Source of the DNA: Chytridium lagenaria
Taxonomy: Eukaryota; Chytridiomycota; Chytridiomycetes; Chytridiales; Chytridiaceae
Assembly: GCA_025449115.1 (NCBI GenBank)
Contig: JAHLKC010000035.1
Span: 232,593 to 296,592, forward strand
DNA: 64,000 bases
Reading direction: 5' to 3'
Part shown: in pieces, positions 2,950 through 64,000 of the stretch
How the letters are laid out: every line of letters begins with the position of its first letter
How positions within the stretch are numbered: position 1 is the first letter of the stretch
Notes under the pieces: model-generated
Databases searched by the model: none
What the model was told of the DNA's origin: nothing
What the model saw: the letters and a program-made list of their open reading frames with translations, nothing else
Made by a program: the position numbers and the translations under genes

Positions 2950-5905
2950 TCACATATCAAAAGGCCACCCTGCCCACATATTCACCTTCTCAGACCCCAT
3001 CTGCGGTCTCTCAATAGCCATCTCCGCCTCAATAATCTCCCCAATCACCAACTGCTCCGCAATAACAGCCTCCACATCTTCCCATTTTGTCAAGGGATTC
3101 GCTATGACAACCCTGAACGCGTCCACGCGTCTCTGAACAGAAATAGGCGTACCCTCTTCCTCGTTCTCTTCTTCTTCTTCACTTTCACCTAATCTCAACG
3201 ACGCTGCGAGGAGGGTAGGTGTTCCAGCAGGTGACTTGCGTCTTCCACCAGCAACACCCCGATCAGGGACGCCGCCGTAGACGTACAAGACGAAGTAGTA
3301 CCAGCTCTTGATCTCCTGACAACCACAGATCCCAAACGAAGGATCAGTAACTCACCGATGTCCTCGACACGAACCCGGCAACACTTCTCTTGCCTGTCGG
3401 TTCTGAATGCGTCGAGTAACATCACTAATCTCCTCGTCCTCCTCCATCTCCAAAGGCGCCATGGCAGCAACTTTATGTCTCAATCTCTTAGGAATATACC
3501 TGTACAGCAGTATATTGGTGGAAGGTTCATGGAGTGTCTGGAAACACCCCAAAGGATGTGTCCTTAGCCTTGCCGCCATCTGTCGAACAAGTGTAGCAGA
3601 ACGTGTGACAAGACTTTCGACTCCATCCCGTCCAAGCAGATGAAGCGACGCGTGAAGATGCAGACTTGTCGCAGGCCTCGATCCCTCTAACGTAAATTTC
3701 CCAAGATCAGGGCTATCATGGCGAATGACGTAGGAGGCGGATTTACGGATATGCGAGGCGTCTTGAGGGTTGCGGAAGAGAATAAGACCGAGACCCATGG
3801 GGGTGTATAGCTGCTTGTGGCCGTCGATGGTGATGGTGTCGGCTTCGGCGATACCCAAGAGCTTGTTGCGGTGCTCGCGGGAGAAGATGAGGGGACCACC
3901 CCAGGCCGCGTCAACATGGAAGTGGATCTTGTGTTCGCGAGCTATCGTGGAGATGCGAGACAGGTTATCAATAGAACCGCTGGGTATTCAAAAGTCTGTT
4001 AGCATATGCTTTTATGGAACTTTTTTTTTAAAATTTATACTCACGTCTCAGTTGTTCCTGCAATACCGACGATAGCAATAATGAGGATCTTTTTAGCTTT
4101 GAACTCCTTGACTTTTTGATCTAAAATGTCCATCCTATTTCAAAGAAAAAAAGAAAATTTGTTAGCTTCACAGTAAGGAGTTATCCACGTAAACAAACAA
4201 AAGCTACAAACCTCATACGAAAATCCTTATCTGTAGGAATAAGGCATAATCCTTCATCACCAATCCCCAGCAAATCTGCCGCCTTCTTAAACGAGTAATG
4301 CATAAGCGAAGACCCAATAATAACCGCCCCCATGTAACCAAACTTCAACAACGCCTTAAACAGTCCCTCCTTCTCCACGCCCCTAAAAGATTTTTTTTTC
4401 TTTCCATCCACAATTGAAGCATCCACATCCGCTTTTAACGCCTTGTTTCTGGCAGTCCACATAGCCGTGATATTTGCGATAGTACCTCCAGATGTGAACA
4501 CGCCGAGAGATCGGTCAAATGCATGCATATGGTGATCGTAGAAGGTGTTTGAGCGGCGAAAGAATTCACGGTGTAGCATGGCGATGGTTTCTCGTTCAAG
4601 GTATGTCATAGTCATGGCTGTCTCGAGTTTAACAACGTTCTGGTTCAACCAGTGAGGAGTCTCGCAAGGGGCGGTGAAAGTATGGAAGAGCTGTGGTCTT
4701 TTTTAAAGACAATAAAAAAACAGTCAGTACTTGGACGTATACTGAATTTGCGATATTTTGTAAAGGCTGCTTACCATATGGCCTATCATTCTCGGCGAAG
4801 ACACTCTTGTTGCCTTGTCAATGACATTGGCCTTGACGGCAAAGAGATATTCCTCAAGCGTTGTGCCATACTCTCCAGAATGCGGTACCTTGAACTGTTG
4901 AGAATCTTGATCTTATTGCTGAGGGATCCTCTGCAGTGTTCGCGTTGATTTTGGATGGTGTGTCTAGGAAGGCTGGAGACAGCAAATGTCACGACAGGAT
5001 CAAAGAAAGTGGGGACTTCAATTGATGATAACAAACCTTGAATAATGCCGGTAAGATATTGGTCCAAGATCCCTTCGCTCTCGTGTGTGCCACAAAGTAA
5101 TGAAGAACAGAGTCCTTGTTCCTTTGCGATCCCGGCTCAAGATGTGTGAAGTCTGTTTCCCTTGCAATCTTTCGTACGGCTTCCCCCAACGACTCCAATG
5201 ACATCGCTTGAGTGGAAGGCATGGTCCATGTACTTTCCTGCGTGGCCTGCACGCAGGTTCTGGGCCGTTGGCATATCTGAGGTTGGCGGTGGGGCAAGGG
5301 ATGGGGCAAAAGACGTGTAGCAGCAAGTGTTGATGAGGTGCCTCATCAAAATGAGAGCGGGTGAAGTTGCAGTAGGTGATGATGTCGCACTACGCCATGT
5401 ACAGCTCATCTCGCCATCGGCATTGGCCGTGTGAAAGAAGTCACCCATCTTGGAAGACTGGCGCAAATGGTATTGATGCTGGTGACTTTGGAAGTTGGTG
5501 GGAGACGGATGCGGGGTGGCTCCTGTGGGCTTGCCCCATAAGGGGAAATGCCATTGCCGTTGGAGATGTCGCAACAGATGGACCTTTAGCTAAATGGGAT
5601 TGTGAAGTAAAGCGGGAGTTGAAGAAAGTCTGCGAGGGAGCCGGGAGGGAAAGAGTTGTTGGATGAAAGGCCAAAAGTTGAATTCCGCTGGACTTTGAGT
5701 AAAGGGATATTCATCTGCCCAATCTTCATCAAAACCCTCGTCGCTGTCTGTCTCGTAATGAGACTGCAGTTGAGGGGCTGGTGTCCTAAGCATGGGTTGA
5801 TGCTGCTGCAGTGGGATGGTCGTTGATGGTGACAGTGTTGTGAAGCGGAGTCCGATGATATTGGAGATCGGATGTGTCGTGTTTTTGGGCAGATGAGGCG
5901 TCATG
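2950..5905 (-). CDS. panP: PanP-like pyridoxal-phosphate-dependent aspartate 1-decarboxylase (group II decarboxylase)
   Basis: PanP converts L-aspartate to beta-alanine, a pantothenate/CoA precursor, in some bacteria. Several exons on the minus strand reproduce the family order: SSPRMIGHM then ALPYF; NQNVVKLETAMTMTYLERE; LGVFTSGGTIANITAMW; HYSFKKAADLLGIG; HVDAAWGGPL; the PLP-lysine block TIDGHKQLYTPMGLG (Lys codon about 3814-3816); RRIQNRQ; FRVVIANPLT. The last block and the DGHKQLY context favour PanP over glutamate decarboxylase or the tyrosine/DOPA decarboxylases. The stop is at 2950-2952. The 5' end is uncertain. The MTPHLPKN methionine near 5905 gives an acidic N-terminal extension; a shorter start near 5220 is possible. 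Single-base breaks are needed near 5090, 5190 and 3370. The substrate is inferred from family resemblance only. Confidence 0.8.
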
Positions 5906-57321: not shown

Positions 57322-58851
57322 TTATCGGGGGGTACATCTGATTACCAAGGAGAGTAAGTAGGTCGCTTTTGACTTCCTCATAATGGGCAGGCTCAAAAGT
57401 GTATATTGCGTAATGTCAAAGTAAGTTTGCAAAGATGCCCATGCTTCCCTAATGGCTTCTTCTTGAGCTGACCGCTCCTGGATCCAGAGCACGGCTGCCT
57501 TTTGAGCATAGGCGGGCCAATTTGCTGAAGCGTCTTCTGCTGCAAGGTTGACCAGCCTGTCCAACATCTGTCCAGAAAATCCGTCGTTCCTGAAAGTGGT
57601 CGGCAGCGTTGTCCAGATCGGTTGGTGTAAGACAAGGTCCTCCAGGTTGCGCCAGTATTCCAAGATATCGCTGTGGTGTTCTGGCAGCTCGAGTTCTTCC
57701 AAGACTTGCTTTACGGTGAGTTGGTTATGCCCAACGTCAAGCTCTACCATCACCTCATCATCAAGTCCTTTAACCATATCTTCCTCGTCATGCCCATCGT
57801 TGCTATCGTCATCCGGAAACTCAGCTTCAGCCCCTCCTCTTCAATGGCAGCCAGTTCTGCTTCCCGTGCCGACAAAGTAAGCTCTTCAAGGGTTCGACGG
57901 TGTCGTTCGGGTGATCCTGAATTGTATTCTTTCAACAAACGCGTAAGTTTCGGCAAGATGACGCTTCAACTTGACCCGGAGCTTTGACGTCAAGGTCGTT
58001 CCTAAATATTAGTTATTACATTATATATCAATCAAACCTTGTCTGGCCTTCAGTAGTCGTCGTATGCTGACTATAGACCGTCCTTCAATTGTCAAAGCAA
58101 GTCGAAGCTGTTCTAGTATTGGTGCCCTCCCTTTTTTAGCCTCGTAGTTTCGAAAAAGCTTATCACGGTGCGCTCTGTTGATCTTGATCGCGTCGCGATA
58201 CGACAGGTTTCTGACACTTAAAACTGTAAGAATGCCCTTGTTGTATAAAACGGTGAGTCGTCCCAGGGCGTCTTCGATGTTTTTCTTTATCACTCTTGGA
58301 GCACTTAATGAAAAGTAAAAAGATAATTAAAGTAAAAACAATAGAATAAAATTAGAGAGGCTTTATTAAATTGAAAATACCCAGCTATCTTTCTTATGTC
58401 AGCATAATCCATTGCAAGCGAGAGAGTAAGCCGTCGATTACCGAAAGTTTGATGCTGAGTGCTCCCGATAATCCTCGAAAGTAGAGACCATCGACGTTCA
58501 CAACCTTCGCCATCAAAATGCCCCAACCCCATTAAAAGCTGAGGCGAAAACATTGATTGACAGCCATGATCATGACAATAAGAATGAAGCTTTGGAAGCA
58601 TCATTAGGTATGGCAGTTCCACTCCGTGCTTTTCCAGGTGCGGAGCCAACTTACAAGCTATGTCGTAGCTGAAGGCAACCTTGCGATTTGGGTACCGTCG
58701 TCGGAAATCGAGAAGCGCGGATGTTGCGTAGACTAGCTTTTCTCCAACATCTATATCTATGCAAAGTTAAAGAGATGGGTTAGGTATACACAACCTTGGT
58801 AATAAAAGCGATTATGTATGCATAACTCACCATGTGAGATTATAAGATAAC
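57322..58851 (-). mobile_element. KDZ-family transposase, C-terminal part (5'-truncated)
   Basis: Kyakuja-Dileera-Zisupton transposons encode a DDE-type transposase and are common in fungi. Minus-strand exons read GYLIISHDIDVGEKLVYATS, KVAFSYDIACKLAPHL, LMMLPKLHSYCHDHGCQSMF, SPQLLMGLGHFDGEGCERRW and TQHQTFGNRRLTLSLAMDYA. YDI.C, the P..H...H...C spacing and DGEG.ER.W (acidic catalytic residue) are family signatures. After introns (about 58306-58384 and 57992-58030) a charged C-terminal region continues (EEFPDDD-like, VKGLDDEVMVELDVGHNQLT) to a stop at 57322. The N-terminal zinc region and first catalytic Asp are absent: the coding trail ends near 58851 and unrelated leader-like DNA begins. Frame breaks near 57930 and 57820 add to the view that this copy is inactive. 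Confidence 0.8.
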
Positions 58852-59159
58852 CTCACCAAGAGGCATGAATGCGTCGCTTATATAGACGTCGTGCCCTTAT
58901 TCTTATTTTGTTGTTCCCGTTCCATTCTTTTCCCTCTCGGGGTTTTTCATAGTTTTTCCCCATAGATACGAGAGAGGTTTTTATAGAAGGAAGGGCGGTC
59001 GACGTGGTATGCCAACTTATGACATGCTACCACGTTGGTCGAGATGCCTGTTGTTGTTATTTGATTCCCCTTTATGTATTGTTTTATTATTTGTAGAAAG
59101 TTGAATAGATTTACGTACACCTCTTCAGTCCTGGATTAAGCCCTTTGCACATTCAGGCC

Positions 59160-59173
59160 AGCCCCTGGTGGGC
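59160..59173 (+). repeat. 14-bp direct repeat, copy 1
   Basis: agcccctggtgggc, identical at 60085-60098. The core GCCC..GGGC can pair with itself. Confidence 0.7.
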
Positions 59174-60084
59174 TGTGCTATCCTCTTTCCCTTTTTATTC
59201 ACTATCGTGTGTTGAGTTGTACTAGCGGGTGCTCTGGTTAGCACGCCGCCGAGGGAGACTGCGATCCGAACCAAGACATTGTCTAAGAAGGTATGAGCCA
59301 TGGGAATACGCCTCAAGGGCATGATTCCTTCGAAGGTTTGGTCAGTATAACTACCTCTGTTCTATTCTCGATGGCTATGACAGGCTATCTAGTTGCCTGT
59401 GAGTGGGAGAGCGGCATGAGCAGGGCCCTAGGTAGATGAGATTGAGATAGAACATGTTAAAACGGCTTATTGCGGCGAATATGAGGCCTGGTACACTCCT
59501 TGGAGCGGGATGGAATCCCTTCTCGTAGACCCCTTTCCCTAGTCACTTTAGATCTAGTCTCTAGGCATTTCCCTTCCTTTTTTCCCTTTATTATTAACGA
59601 TTAGAACGAAAACCACAGCAACTTAAATCCCCGCTGTCACTAAAGGCAGAATAGGGCTTGACTCTTGATATAGGAGTACTTCCTAGACTCTAGTCTCGTC
59701 ACCTATTATGTGGTTCTCTACCTCTGTATGCCGGGGCTTAGCAGAGGGGGCCATAGAGAGAACTTCACAGATGGGGGCCCAACCTTAACATGGTGGTTTT
59801 TATTTCTTTTCGATCTCTTTCATTTTATTAATAACTCTTTTATATTTTTACATCATCATGTTGCCACGGTTCCCCTCTTTCGAACGACATATTGATCGTC
59901 GAATTCGCGTGCACGGCTGCGGCGAGATCGCAAGTCGGGTCTCTGGGGTCCTCCAACCATACCCCCGCACATGCACCAACCTGTCAAAATTTGTGCCATT
60001 TGTGCCGCTGACAATTTTGGCACAGGTAAGAGGCTACTTTACTTTCTATACCTCATTCTGTGCCCCTGGATCTGAAAACCTCGA

Positions 60085-60098
60085 AGCCCCTGGTGGGC
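60085..60098 (+). repeat. 14-bp direct repeat, copy 2
   Basis: Same 14 bp as at 59160-59173, 925 bp downstream. Confidence 0.7.
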
Positions 60099-61127
60099 CT
60101 AGACGTGAATAAGGTTCAGTTTATGACTCTGTGTAATGCAGGGCTGACTAGAGGTCTGTAATGGACCTCTGACCACCTTTACAGAAACTTTCGAGTTTTT
60201 GTTTTTCAGAGATCTGTGGCGTCAAGTCACGGAAACTCTTTCAGAAGTCTTAAAAAGCTTCTTAGAAACCCTTTGAAGGGTATTTTAACTATTATCTAAG
60301 CTAGAATCGAAACTTTATTCGACTTTATTTTTCGATTATTTATATTTTTTCAATTTTGTCGATGAGTTCCGGCTCAACGACGTTGAAAATTAAGATCCTG
60401 GTAGATCTATTATCCATCCATCAATGGTAAAAGTTCGTTCGCGCTAGTAATTTTTTAGACGATTATATCTCCAAAACTGTGTTCTTTATTGCAAATGAAC
60501 TTAGACTTTTTCCCCAGCAAATATCCATTGTTACACAAAATTCTTACTTAATGTTAGACCCCAGGGTCCAACCTGAGGGCCTGTATTCCTGTGATCTCGA
60601 ACGGGACTTCCTCCCGACGGTGGGATCCTAGATATTCCAAGGTACTTTGGTATGATATTATGATATATCTTTTCAAAATTGTTTTAGACATCGTTTTCGA
60701 CTTTATATGAGGTTTATCAATTCGTCGCATCTTTGAATTACGATTCCGACGCCAATTCAAAAGTTTCCTTAATAAACTTCTACAAATAATTCAAAACTTA
60801 GAAACTATCTAGAATTCTTTAAAGTTTTCTTTATTTGATCAAGATTTGGCGACGATATCCTCGCTTTTCAAAAATACCACTTTTTTACGTTCTATCGACT
60901 TGATTTTTTCACGGTTTAAGCGAATTTAAACAACGATCATTTTATATATGTCTCGTTGTTCTCCGATGTGTCGTTCCGAAGTTATCGAATTTCGAAGACT
61001 CGTGTCGGATCACTTCGAGAACGAATCTTCACAAAAACATTAATTAAATTAAAAGAATTGTCAAATACAAAAATATTGTGGATCCAAACACCGCAACCAT
61101 CCTCCGCATCAAACAGGCACAGAGAAA

Positions 61128-62800
61128 AGTGAGTGTTCACCATCCCTTGGAAGTACTTTTCTCGTTATTTTGCTCTATTATCCTCCCATCACACCCTTGG
61201 ACAGAGTTGGTGTAAGGCCAGCCGGACTTGGGCACTGTAATAGTGTCCTAACATCCACCCTTCCCTTTCGTTTTGCAGTGCAAAACATAGAGTACTTCGA
61301 CGTACCCCCGCCTCCACCAGGCCAACCCAGGACTCCTAAGAAGAGTACCTTTCGTGCAGATCGCCTTACCTACAAAGAAAAACAGCTTATCCAAGAAAAA
61401 GTGTCTGCTGCTAAAGTTGGACGGGAGGTTTTCTGGACGACTGGAGACTATCCTAAGAGTCCCTATAACAGCAAGGTGTTCACGGCTTTGTCCCTTACCA
61501 ACGGTTTCGAAACCAAAGACCCGAGCCAGTGGGCTTTCTTGTCGGCTGAGGAACACGCCTCTCGTGGTCTCCCCTTGCTGAGGACGCTCTCCCCAAGCAC
61601 TGTCGCGACTACAACGCGGCCCTGGAGTCCTTGAAGAAACAGGACGAATTTAACGACCTTTGGAAGGAAGTTGTTGAGCATTGCCGCGTCGAAGCATTGA
61701 AGAGGAGGAAAGAAATCACCCCCCAACTTGCTAAAGCCGCCTCCAAGCTTCAGCACGCGTCCCAACTCGGCAACATTGAAGCTGAAGTCGTCCCTGCCGC
61801 GGCAGAACCCTCGTTTTCCTCCAAGCGCCGCCGTGGTGACGAAATTATTGATATTGCTGTCATCTCTGTTAGTGACAGCCTTTTGGAGAAGGATTACTTA
61901 CCTCTCCTCCCTACCACGGTCATTGGCAACAACTGGGTGTTCTTGGTGGGACCTCTTAAGAAGCAATACGTTCTTGGACTTTTAGGTTCCATTTCTGACC
62001 GCCTCCGCCTCTACTTGGACGTTAGTAATTTGGGCTACTCTCAACGTGCACCTACTTCCGAGCTCATCCCTCAGCTTAATAGTGTCTACCGTCGTTATAT
62101 TTCCATCCGCGAGAGTATTTTCTACGCTGTTAGAGGTTGGGAGAAGGATATTCTTACCTTTCTTGGTTCTGAACCCTACCCATTGAAGCCGATTGGAGAA
62201 CTCGTTCTCCTTCCTGACGAAACGTTGAAGGCCGCTTCCATCGCAGTGTTCCAAGCTCGTCGTACGGTTTCGACTACTGAAGCTCAGATTCAGAGCTCTC
62301 GACCTCCAGTCACTGTATCTGCTGCTGGGCACGTCGCTCTCGGAAGGGCTATTCAAAGTGCCGTTAAGGCCCAGGAACGAGCCACACGTCAATCTCGCGG
62401 CGATAGTACTCGCCCCGTCAAATCCTCCACAGATCAACGTGGTTCAACACGCCGCTCTGCTAGCAGATCCAGCAGATCCTCCGTCAAAAGTCGTTCCTCT
62501 ACGAACTCAACCTTTTTTCCGGGTTTCCAGCTTCCCATTCGAATTGAGAACTTGAAGAGACGCTTGAAATCTGCCTCGACTGCTGAGAAAAAGGAATCTC
62601 TTACTTTCGAGCTTGAGGTCGCCAGAAAAGCTTACCTGAAGTTTACTGATTCTGGAACTCCCTCTACCTCCTCTTCGGAACTCCTTGAGGGCATTATCCC
62701 TCCCATTGGCGTGGATAACGACGACAGTGACGTTGCCGTTACCCATTCTTCTGACGACGGCGACGAAGTCCCATCCACTGAGGTCTCTAAAAAAGATTAG
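61128..62800 (+). CDS. ORF1 of the putative two-ORF element (unrecognised, Gag-like position)
   Basis: An intron 61129-61278 (gtgagt...tttgcag) joins ...GAGAAA-A to TG-CAAAACATAGAG and so creates ATG: MQNIEYFDVPPPPPGQP. Downstream the frame is open to KKD and TAG at 62800, except one break at the CCCC run 61571-61574, where adding one C restores GLPLAEDALPKHC. The protein is about 500 residues: Pro-rich start, Lys-rich helix (RADRLTYKEKQLIQEKV), a compact middle domain (PTTVIGNNWVFLVGPLKKQY; LYLDVSNLGYSQRAP; SVYRRYISIRESIFYAVRGW), a Ser/Arg-rich basic stretch (TRRSASRSSRSSVKSRSS) and an acidic Ser-rich tail. There is no zinc knuckle, RT or nuclease motif. Its position before a second ORF and its basic SR tract fit a nucleic-acid-binding, Gag-like protein, but this is inference. 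Confidence 0.6.
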
Positions 62801-62980
62801 ATTTAACATCCCTTTGTTGGCCTTATTCCAAATCTTTTTGTTCAGATCCTTGGATTAATTTTGTTCCTACCCTTTCGAGAATTTGTTTTATTTCAGAGCC
62901 ACTTTCGCCGGTGGACTTGACTTATAGGAATAAGATTTATAACTTTTATTTTAAAGGACTCTTTACTGTTTCTAATAAAA

Positions 62981-64000
62981 ATGGACAAAAACTTCCCTCG
63001 ACCTCCCACTGGATCACGCGAAGATGTCTTTTTCATGTTGTGCTTCCAGAGACCCTCCAAAGCTCGTGCGGTCGCTCATGAGACACGTCCATGGAAACCG
63101 TTGATTTTACGCGCTACCGTATCTTTTCTCAAAACGACACATGGCTTTGCTCACGAGCTTACGGTCCAGTATGTTCTCGCTTTTAGTCGGAATCGCCGAC
63201 TGACCCTATCAGATCCCGTTGATCCGTTGTACTTCTTACCTCTTCAGTATGATGTACCTCGTGGTGCTTCGCCTAGCCCCTATATGCTTGAGTTCCTTGT
63301 AAAGAACAAAAGACTTACCTTTAATTTGTTTAAACTTTCTGAGTTATTAAAAACTCGCGTCGATTCCCTCCCTTTTCCTGAGGAAACCCCCTGCGAAATT
63401 ATTTTCCTTAATCCAGTACGATTTGACGTTGTTCATTGGAACGGAAAGTATTTCTCTCACTCTCCCATATGGAAGCCACCAGTAGCCTATGTCTCTGTCG
63501 ATGGTATGAGAATTCCTGCCTCCGGCATTCCCGGGTCAATCCCCGACATATTCACCGAATTTCCTCCCTCTCCTGAAGAACATGGAGAGGTGTACGTCGA
63601 TGCTCCTTCACGCCCAATAAGTCCTGATATCGGCTCTGAACGTCATCCCCAGGGAATTGAACCCCAAGAAGACTCAACTTTGTCGCGTCAAACGACCACT
63701 ATGTCCCCGACGCCTAGTACACCTTCGGCGTTTATCCAGTCGTTCCTTTCCAAACGACTTCCTACAATGCTAGCCTCGGGAGATCCACTGAGTATTCAAC
63801 AGGCCCCTATTCAGGATAAAAAACGAATGCACCGTATTTATAAAGGAAAAGCTCCCGCTTACCTACTAAAAGCCCATGGCTCTTTTCCCCCGGTTATTCA
63901 ACCCGACATGGACGCAACCTTTGCCTCCTATACCCCCATCAAATCGGAAACATCATCTCCGATAACGAATTCCTTTTTTGGTGTTAACTCTTCCTTAAAA
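62981..64000 (+). CDS. ORF2 of the putative element, open at the right edge
   Basis: It starts MDKNFPRPPTGSREDVFFML and is open for 340 codons to the last base, with no stop. Its start is 180 bp after the ORF1 stop, on the same strand. The first part looks folded (FLKTTHGFAHELTVQYVLAF; DPLYFLPLQYDVPRGASPSP; LLKTRVDSLPFPEETPCEII; FDVVHWNGKYFSHSPIWKPP). From about residue 195 it is Pro/Ser/Thr-rich linker. No catalytic motif is visible in the part we have; reverse transcriptase, integrase or other domains could follow beyond the window. I do not recognise the family. Confidence 0.6.
   Translation, partial: MDKNFPRPPTGSREDVFFMLCFQRPSKARAVAHETRPWKPLILRATVSFLKTTHGFAHELTVQYVLAFSRNRRLTLSDPVDPLYFLPLQYDVPRGASPSPYMLEFLVKNKRLTFNLFKLSELLKTRVDSLPFPEETPCEIIFLNPVRFDVVHWNGKYFSHSPIWKPPVAYVSVDGMRIPASGIPGSIPDIFTEFPPSPEEHGEVYVDAPSRPISPDIGSERHPQGIEPQEDSTLSRQTTTMSPTPSTPSAFIQSFLSKRLPTMLASGDPLSIQQAPIQDKKRMHRIYKGKAPAYLLKAHGSFPPVIQPDMDATFASYTPIKSETSSPITNSFFGVNSSLK

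Follow-up and report, generated by a model that had tools for sequence, protein, structure and literature searches.

The window analysed here is the final 64 kb of contig C35 (296592 bases) in the 41.9-Mb assembly of Chytridium lagenaria, and its right end carries two tandem open reading frames (ORFs), ORF1 and ORF2, of a repeated element. The ORFs were assigned to the 5' part of a long terminal repeat (LTR) retrotransposon, and the start codon of ORF1 is predicted to be split by a short intron that lies within a long corridor free of ATG. The features of the element, in window coordinates, are as follows.

58833..59769, + strand: 5' LTR, 937 bp, ends TGTGA...TCACA (DNA search and end reading)
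59772..59784, + strand: primer binding site, TGGGGGCCCAACC, complementary to the 3' end of tRNA-Pro (acceptor-stem pattern and ARAGORN)
59770..61128, + strand: leader with 16 ATGs, a normal number; its final base, A, supplies the first letter of the split ORF1 start codon
61129..61278, + strand: predicted intron of 150 nt within the ORF1 start codon, A/GTGAGT...CTAAC...TTTTGCAG/TG
61279..62800, + strand: ORF1 body, about 505 codons, orphan, basic, with a Ser/Arg tract at 62450-62569 (ORF reading)
62981..64000, + strand: ORF2, orphan, open for 340 codons as far as the contig end (ORF reading)
60966..62981, + strand: corridor without ATG in all three frames, from the last leader ATG (60966) to the ORF2 ATG (62981)

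The ORF pair and the surrounding element

As the original prediction stated from the sequence of the window, the two ORFs lie on one strand, with 180 bp between the stop codon of ORF1 (62798-62800) and the ATG of ORF2. ORF2 is indeed open at the edge, but the cut is the end of contig C35 itself, and the extension to the right that had been suggested is impossible. Because the contig ends within the element, the gag-pol part of the window copy is unseen. The length of about 500 aa given for ORF1 holds, but it is not a single frame here, i.e., a frameshift near 61.58 kb separates an N-terminal part from a 389-aa part. At this point the frame is uninterrupted in a sister copy on contig C338. This copy is 99.8% identical to the window copy over 2.7 kb, has different flanks, and likewise stops with its contig inside the element. 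The basic Ser/Arg tract was found (net +10 over 40 residues), and the absence of a zinc knuckle was correctly noted, with one Cys in the main frame of ORF1 and two in ORF2. The 2.2-2.3 kb ahead of ORF1, described as noncoding, contains no obvious gene but actually consists of the LTR, the primer site and the leader. The LTR, the intron within the start codon and the ATG-free corridor had been overlooked.

The LTR query gave at least 51 matches, 23 of the 51 spanning base 1 to base 937-940, and the repeat has the TG...CA ends of a terminal repeat. For the LTR search with 58833-61080 as query, the best 40 of 354 candidates were scored. Paired LTRs around one coding set were located in the related C131 copy, where they are 99% identical and the second one lies 2.1 kb downstream of an integrase. 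By match coordinates, an LTR of the window family also lies 2.1 kb behind an integrase on C138. An LTR-like stretch behind ORF2 on C184 was rejected as the 3' LTR of that copy; it shows 98% identity to LTRs of the C131 family, whereas the 5' LTR there belongs to the window family.

The primer binding site begins two bases past the LTR end. A genome pattern search for an acceptor stem fitting this site found 15 places, and the reversed control found 0. Eleven of the 15 places were read as sequence, and four different ones were submitted to ARAGORN; all three tRNA-like stretches were called tRNA-Pro, and one odd-looking stretch was not. The fit to tRNA-Pro covers 13 nt if the discriminator base is assumed to be C and 12 nt without that base. 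Self-priming was rejected, as no LTR stretch of 8 nt or more was complementary to the leader start.

In six relatives (C115, C36, C13, C120, C324 and C131), ORF1 and ORF2 are followed by a gag-like ORF and by reverse transcriptase and RNase H (RT/RH). The pol of C36 is interrupted by the contig end, and C131 keeps the same gene order with wider gaps, which are probably nested insertions. An integrase was found downstream on C13 and C324, about 2 kb behind RT/RH, and farther away on C131 (PF00665 search, best 150 of 309 candidates scored). RT/RH matched Pfam RVT_1 and RT_RNaseH, and the best match among solved structures was Ty3 (E 1.5e-38). In the C115 fragment of pol, the RNase H matched solely RT_RNaseH types in Pfam. 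The 1124-aa gag-like ORF of C115 had no match in Pfam or in solved structures and is provisionally called gag-pro by its position. In the same pol (L016:3379-4989, - strand), about 280 residues past RNase H are conserved in several copies and belong to no Pfam family; they may be a Pol piece ahead of the integrase. On C6, a gag fragment is 93% identical to that of C115 while ORF1 and ORF2 were not found, and many more distant gag/pol matches also showed no detected ORF1 or ORF2. Loss, truncation or divergence past detection may explain such loci.

Since an LTR and a primer site are present, the flanks vary, and the ORF pair precedes gag-like, RT, RNase H and integrase sequences in relatives, it is supported at the sequence level that the window ORFs stand near the 5' end of a large LTR retrotransposon of Ty3/Gypsy type. 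This agrees with the earlier proposal, which was for a retroelement or a large transposon whose first protein is uncharacterised. The search for copies in the same genome, which had been advised, found multiple copies at different flanks. The earlier cautions, that the locus might prove single-copy or show conserved synteny in related species, or that ORF2 might carry an ordinary cellular domain, were not borne out; the copies are several, their flanks differ, and ORF2 yielded no such domain.

Also in line with the original prediction, neither ORF reached the thresholds applied for a family in Pfam, NCBIfam or PHROGs, and the matches to solved structures were so weak (E 0.25 or more) that they resemble chance. 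Proteins were searched among 5.8 billion entries. ORF1 had at least four matches (7997 candidates scored), all from C. lagenaria and corresponding to the copies on C35, C338, C36 and C115. For ORF2, the single-sequence search gave none among 1481 candidates, and the alignment search gave at least one match, from C. lagenaria (7991 candidates scored). Among the matches listed, the two proteins thus appear in C. lagenaria alone; these searches require common 5-residue words, and distant relatives may therefore escape them. The ratio of nonsynonymous to synonymous differences per site (pN/pS) was 0.28-0.54 for ORF1 in four comparisons and 0.29-0.45 for ORF2 in three, with upper bootstrap bounds of 0.64 or less and synonymous sites near saturation. 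These values indicate that ORF1 and ORF2 are selected as proteins, and both are judged to be under purifying selection. The public gene models P0001-P0005, i.e., hypothetical proteins, correspond to ORF1 or ORF2 with leader pieces spliced on variously, and at least five public C. lagenaria gene models are retroelement genes on this assignment.

A predicted split start codon and an ATG-free corridor

The window copy of ORF1 has no in-frame ATG in its DNA, and ORF1 could start only via splicing or at another codon. Eight loci of five lineages were compared at this point, i.e., C35/C338, C36/C115, C13, C131 and C184/C259, of which the three pairs are near-copies and hence non-independent. ORF1 opens at a splice acceptor followed by TG in all eight, and a donor, A/GTGAGT or A/GTAAGT, is placed 149-160 nt upstream of the acceptor in every one. 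With an A/GTRAGT donor and an AG/TG acceptor, splicing would therefore yield ATG. Such a donor, 140-170 nt away, arose in 0.05-0.65% of the trials in which the upstream sequence of a locus was shuffled. The leader around the intron is hardly alignable among C131, C259 and the window, so the split codon is not merely DNA that stayed unchanged. By eye, a CTAAC or CTAAT word was recognized ahead of the acceptor in four of the five lineages. The frame past the acceptor is open in C338, C13 and C259, and gene models P0001 and P0002 use the exact 61128/61279 junction. Copying of spliced RNA would strip an intron from a retroelement. As the intron is kept in 8/8 loci, the RNA that was copied was therefore unspliced.

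The ATG-free run of the window is 2015 nt, and the next longest runs are 535 nt on the + strand and 654 nt on the - strand. ATGs in any frame were counted from the acceptor to the ORF2 ATG (in C338, to the contig end) and compared with the expectation from dinucleotide shuffles. The observed and expected numbers were 0 and 12.8 in C35, 0 and 7.1 in C338, 0 and 13.4 in C36, 0 and 13.2 in C115, 0 and 13.9 in C13, 1 and 13.2 in C131, 3 and 14.8 in C259, and 3 and 15.3 in C184. The total is 7 ATGs against about 104 expected, and none of the 500 shuffles at each locus was as low. CAT, which is ATG on the opposite strand, occurs 10-20 times per locus in the corridor, GAT and TGA are common there, and ATG was the most depleted of the 64 words in each of seven loci. 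A sixth lineage gave 0 ATGs in 1243 nt (C120) and 0 in 1420 nt (C324); L031 is the same C120 place and was dropped from the count. Two decayed loci with ORF2 and no detected ORF1 hold 19 (C125) and 17 (C48) ATGs in 1450 nt.

The leader, ORF2 and the gag-like ORF show no comparable depletion. The C35 leader has its 16 ATGs against 17.4 expected, and none of the seven leaders counted is significantly ATG-poor. ORF2 of C35 has 20 ATGs against 11 expected, and the gag-like ORF of C115 has 67 against 53. Across 13 loci, the homologues of the corridor in C36, C115, C131 and C184 make up the longest ATG-free runs, that of C184 being truncated by the locus edge, and the next run is 1013 nt within tandem repeats in C36. 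Because of the corridor, the ATG of ORF2, with A at -3 and G at +4, would be the first to be met by ribosomes scanning from behind 60966. TATA-like words were found near the place expected for an internal promoter in four of five loci (C35, C13, C131 and C259). Farther downstream in C115, 11 of the 12 last ATGs listed before the gag-like start lie within 830 nt upstream of that start.

Expression model and alternatives

With a probability of roughly 0.75, we regard the first two genes as a splicing- and scanning-controlled expression module ahead of gag, at the 5' end of a large Ty3/Gypsy-type element. Transcripts would enter past the last leader ATG, through an internal promoter near the leader end, leader splicing or shunting, and ribosomes would scan them from the 5' end. 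When the 150-nt intron is removed, A would join TG and ORF1 would be made. When the intron is kept, no ATG would stand ahead of ORF2, and ribosomes would proceed to it. Leaky scanning of the spliced RNA would offer an alternative path to ORF2. Splicing would set the ORF1:ORF2 ratio, unspliced genomic RNA could not start ORF1 at an AUG, and reverse-copied RNA would have to retain the intron. A more specific claim is that one short intron inside the start codon is the switch between two orphan early proteins, that ribosomes on unspliced RNA scan an AUG-free corridor of up to 2 kb, maintained by selection, until they reach ORF2, and that the split codon and the corridor were kept in lineages whose ORF1 proteins diverged to about 25-40% identity; our judgement leans slightly toward it. 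It has long been asked how a retroelement apportions its transcript to protein synthesis and to copying. The answer may be encoded here in DNA, as a splicing-dependent start codon and a start-codon-free path kept across diverged lineages of one fungus.

ORF1 might act as an early RNA-binding regulator that aids unspliced genomic RNA in nuclear exit or particle entry. Its basic Ser/Arg tract is the reason to compare it with CERV of the Cer1 element, and a CERV-like role is offered as a guess, and a doubtful one. ORF2 might be a partner of ORF1 or a particle accessory, which is also a guess.

Several points weigh against the expression model, which was built on DNA sequence. The corridor is not strictly ATG-free in C131 (one ATG) or in C184 and C259 (three each), and the leader of C184 is itself ATG-poor (14 against 19.6, P 0.053). 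The seven leaders counted carry 11-16 ATGs each, and the model therefore requires an internal promoter, leader splicing or shunting; C36 has no TATA-like word at the expected place. C131 lacks a CTAAY branch word. A stop occurs less than 170 codons past the acceptor in five of the eight loci (C35, C36, C115, C131 and C184), which implies that many copies are decayed. Two of the four ORF1 gene models, P0003 and P0004, skip the junction. The structure predictions were unusable for both ORF1 (predicted local distance difference test, pLDDT, 38; predicted template modelling score, pTM, 0.19) and ORF2 (pLDDT 31, pTM 0.16).

Other explanations were considered. The one that survives best is that the window copy is non-autonomous, comprising only LTRs, leader and ORF1-ORF2, and owes its mobility to the gag-pol of relatives with the same LTR and leader. 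This would suit the unseen gag-pol, the LTR and leader that are nearly those of C36 and C115 beside a different ORF1-ORF2, and the existence of derivatives of about 4.8 kb bearing the window LTR and leader. However, five further contigs with the pair have gag-like and RT/RH sequences behind it, at the usual spacing or with an insert, and we consider non-autonomy of the window copy rather unlikely.

The start of ORF1 could also lie farther upstream, in the following feature.

59858..60025, + strand: possible leader exon, from an ATG to a GTAAG donor; frame broken here, open in C338 and C36

Joined from its donor at 60026 to the same acceptor, this exon would make G/TG a Val codon, and the short intron would create no start codon. 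In C338 and C36 the exon is uninterrupted and its phase fits, and gene models P0001-P0003 start in it. However, it is broken in C35 and C115 and was not detected in C184, C259, C131 or the examined stretch of C13, whereas the short intron is in all eight loci and is also used by P0001 and P0002. A start of ORF1 solely through this exon was demoted to a rival once the nearer donor proved conserved, and it now seems improbable. To the same low degree it can be supposed that ORF1 and ORF2 are the true Gag structural proteins, split in two, and that the 1124-aa ORF is something else ahead of the protease. The first position and basic character of ORF1 and the lack of a recognised Gag in the 1124-aa ORF would agree with this, but fast-evolving Gag frequently escapes Pfam, and the related gag-like ORF at many loci without detected ORF1 or ORF2 suits a core gene better.

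It is very unlikely that the ATG desert results from Met avoidance in ORF1 or from base composition, and not from scanning. ORF1 does lack Met in its own frame, but the other two frames are ATG-free as well, as are the intron and the 180-bp gap between the ORFs; the shuffles preserve dinucleotides, and the abundance of CAT, GAT and TGA and the top rank of ATG among depleted words in 7/7 loci do not fit composition. A host gene pair, as the public models labelling ORF1 a hypothetical host protein would have it, was rejected, since it is contradicted by the multiple copies, their position beside LTRs or gag-pol, and the decayed ones among them.

Known systems, ancestry of the copies and neighbouring sequences

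Extra ORFs ahead of gag are already known, and what appears new relative to the elements compared here is the conserved chytrid pair, its split start codon and the long ATG desert; no literature search was aimed at split start codons. The plant Ogre/Tat/Athila (OTA) group of Ty3/Gypsy elements has extra ORFs (PMC6317226), one or two of them, with function unknown, in Ogre (PMC6431247), and Ogre uses partial splicing (PMC6317226, PMC6431247). The extra ORFs of plants are reported as highly heterogeneous (PMC6317226, PMC6431247), and their likeness to the chytrid pair is one of description. ORF0 of Retrosat2 in rice is likewise an orphan, fast-evolving ORF ahead of gag-pol in an LTR element, but it is a single ORF between LTRs of over 3.2 kb, and the available part of the report makes no mention of a split start codon or an ATG-free corridor (PMC3485330). 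The plant cases have been reviewed (PMC7264820). In a survey of fungal Gypsy elements, most have one or two ORFs, and a figure legend, on which our comparison is based, lists an additional ORF of unknown function (PMC2864245). Among the papers compared, it is chiefly plants that have extra ORFs in front of gag, and the conserved chytrid pair widens this range. No paper on the transposable elements of C. lagenaria was found in the library searched.

Leaky scanning across AUG-free ORFs over about 900 nt is established in rice tungro bacilliform virus (RTBV), and in RTBV and badnaviruses two long ORFs without internal AUGs are scanned through to the next ORF (PMC5902531). The chytrid element shares the AUG-free upstream ORF in all frames up to the next start, though not strictly in C131, C184 and C259. 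RTBV is a DNA pararetrovirus whose first ORF starts at AUU (PMC5902531), whereas in the chytrid element the corridor reaches up to 2 kb and the start codon is predicted to contain an intron. In green algal bicistronic genes, ribosomes likewise get to ORF2 by leaky scanning if it has few AUGs ahead of it, but these are host genes in which a weak ORF1 start is passed, with no intron in the start (PMC11892635). In Cer1 of Caenorhabditis elegans, a Ty3-like element, the orphan protein CERV is made from spliced mRNA and exports unspliced genomic RNA (PMC10309623); such a role is the one guessed for ORF1. CERV differs in having its own exon behind pol and exons shared with gag (PMC10309623), and the likeness to ORF1 is by description only.

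The ancestry of the copies appears mosaic. The window copy was compared with C36 and C115 in 100-base steps, and identity was 90-100% from the LTR to about 60.8 kb, 78-92% from there to the ORF1 start, for the most part 60-80% within ORF1 and 40-65% within ORF2. Between C115 and C13, RT/RH is 98% identical, whereas the longer ORF1 pieces are 41-55% and ORF2 31-39% identical, partly through out-of-frame decay of C115. From this pattern, LTR, leader and pol seem to have been swapped between lineages while ORF1 and ORF2 diverged. C36 and C115 themselves are 94% identical over 6.4 kb from the LTR and 97% over another 2.5 kb; these two pieces are about 9.5 kb apart in C36 and 1.1 kb apart in C115.

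Short derivatives were found at C18:397352-402175, C108:3178-8035, C5:53976-58840, C149:87627-92955 and C62:21875-23993. They share the LTR and leader up to window position 60956, i.e., the shared part stops right before the ATG-free corridor. By search coordinates, a second LTR follows about 1.8 kb onward in four of the five, for a total of about 4.8-5.3 kb. These LTR-leader derivatives look like non-autonomous partners.

Outside the element, one gene piece lies next to the 5' LTR of the window copy.

58308..58649, - strand: C-terminal piece of a KDZ transposase (PF18758, E 4.8e-16)

The adjoining truncated KDZ copy had been named in the original prediction, and the domain match confirms it. 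The piece ends near the LTR start; a KDZ copy may have been the insertion target of the element. On C184, ORFs at L014:1-5277 resemble, by eye, a tyrosine-recombinase (DIRS-like) retroelement, and a short repeat is present at 5387-5453 and 5802-5867 of L014. At C259:15000-23999 (L022), Copia-like gag-pol pieces in inverted arrangement adjoin the LTR of the C259 copy.

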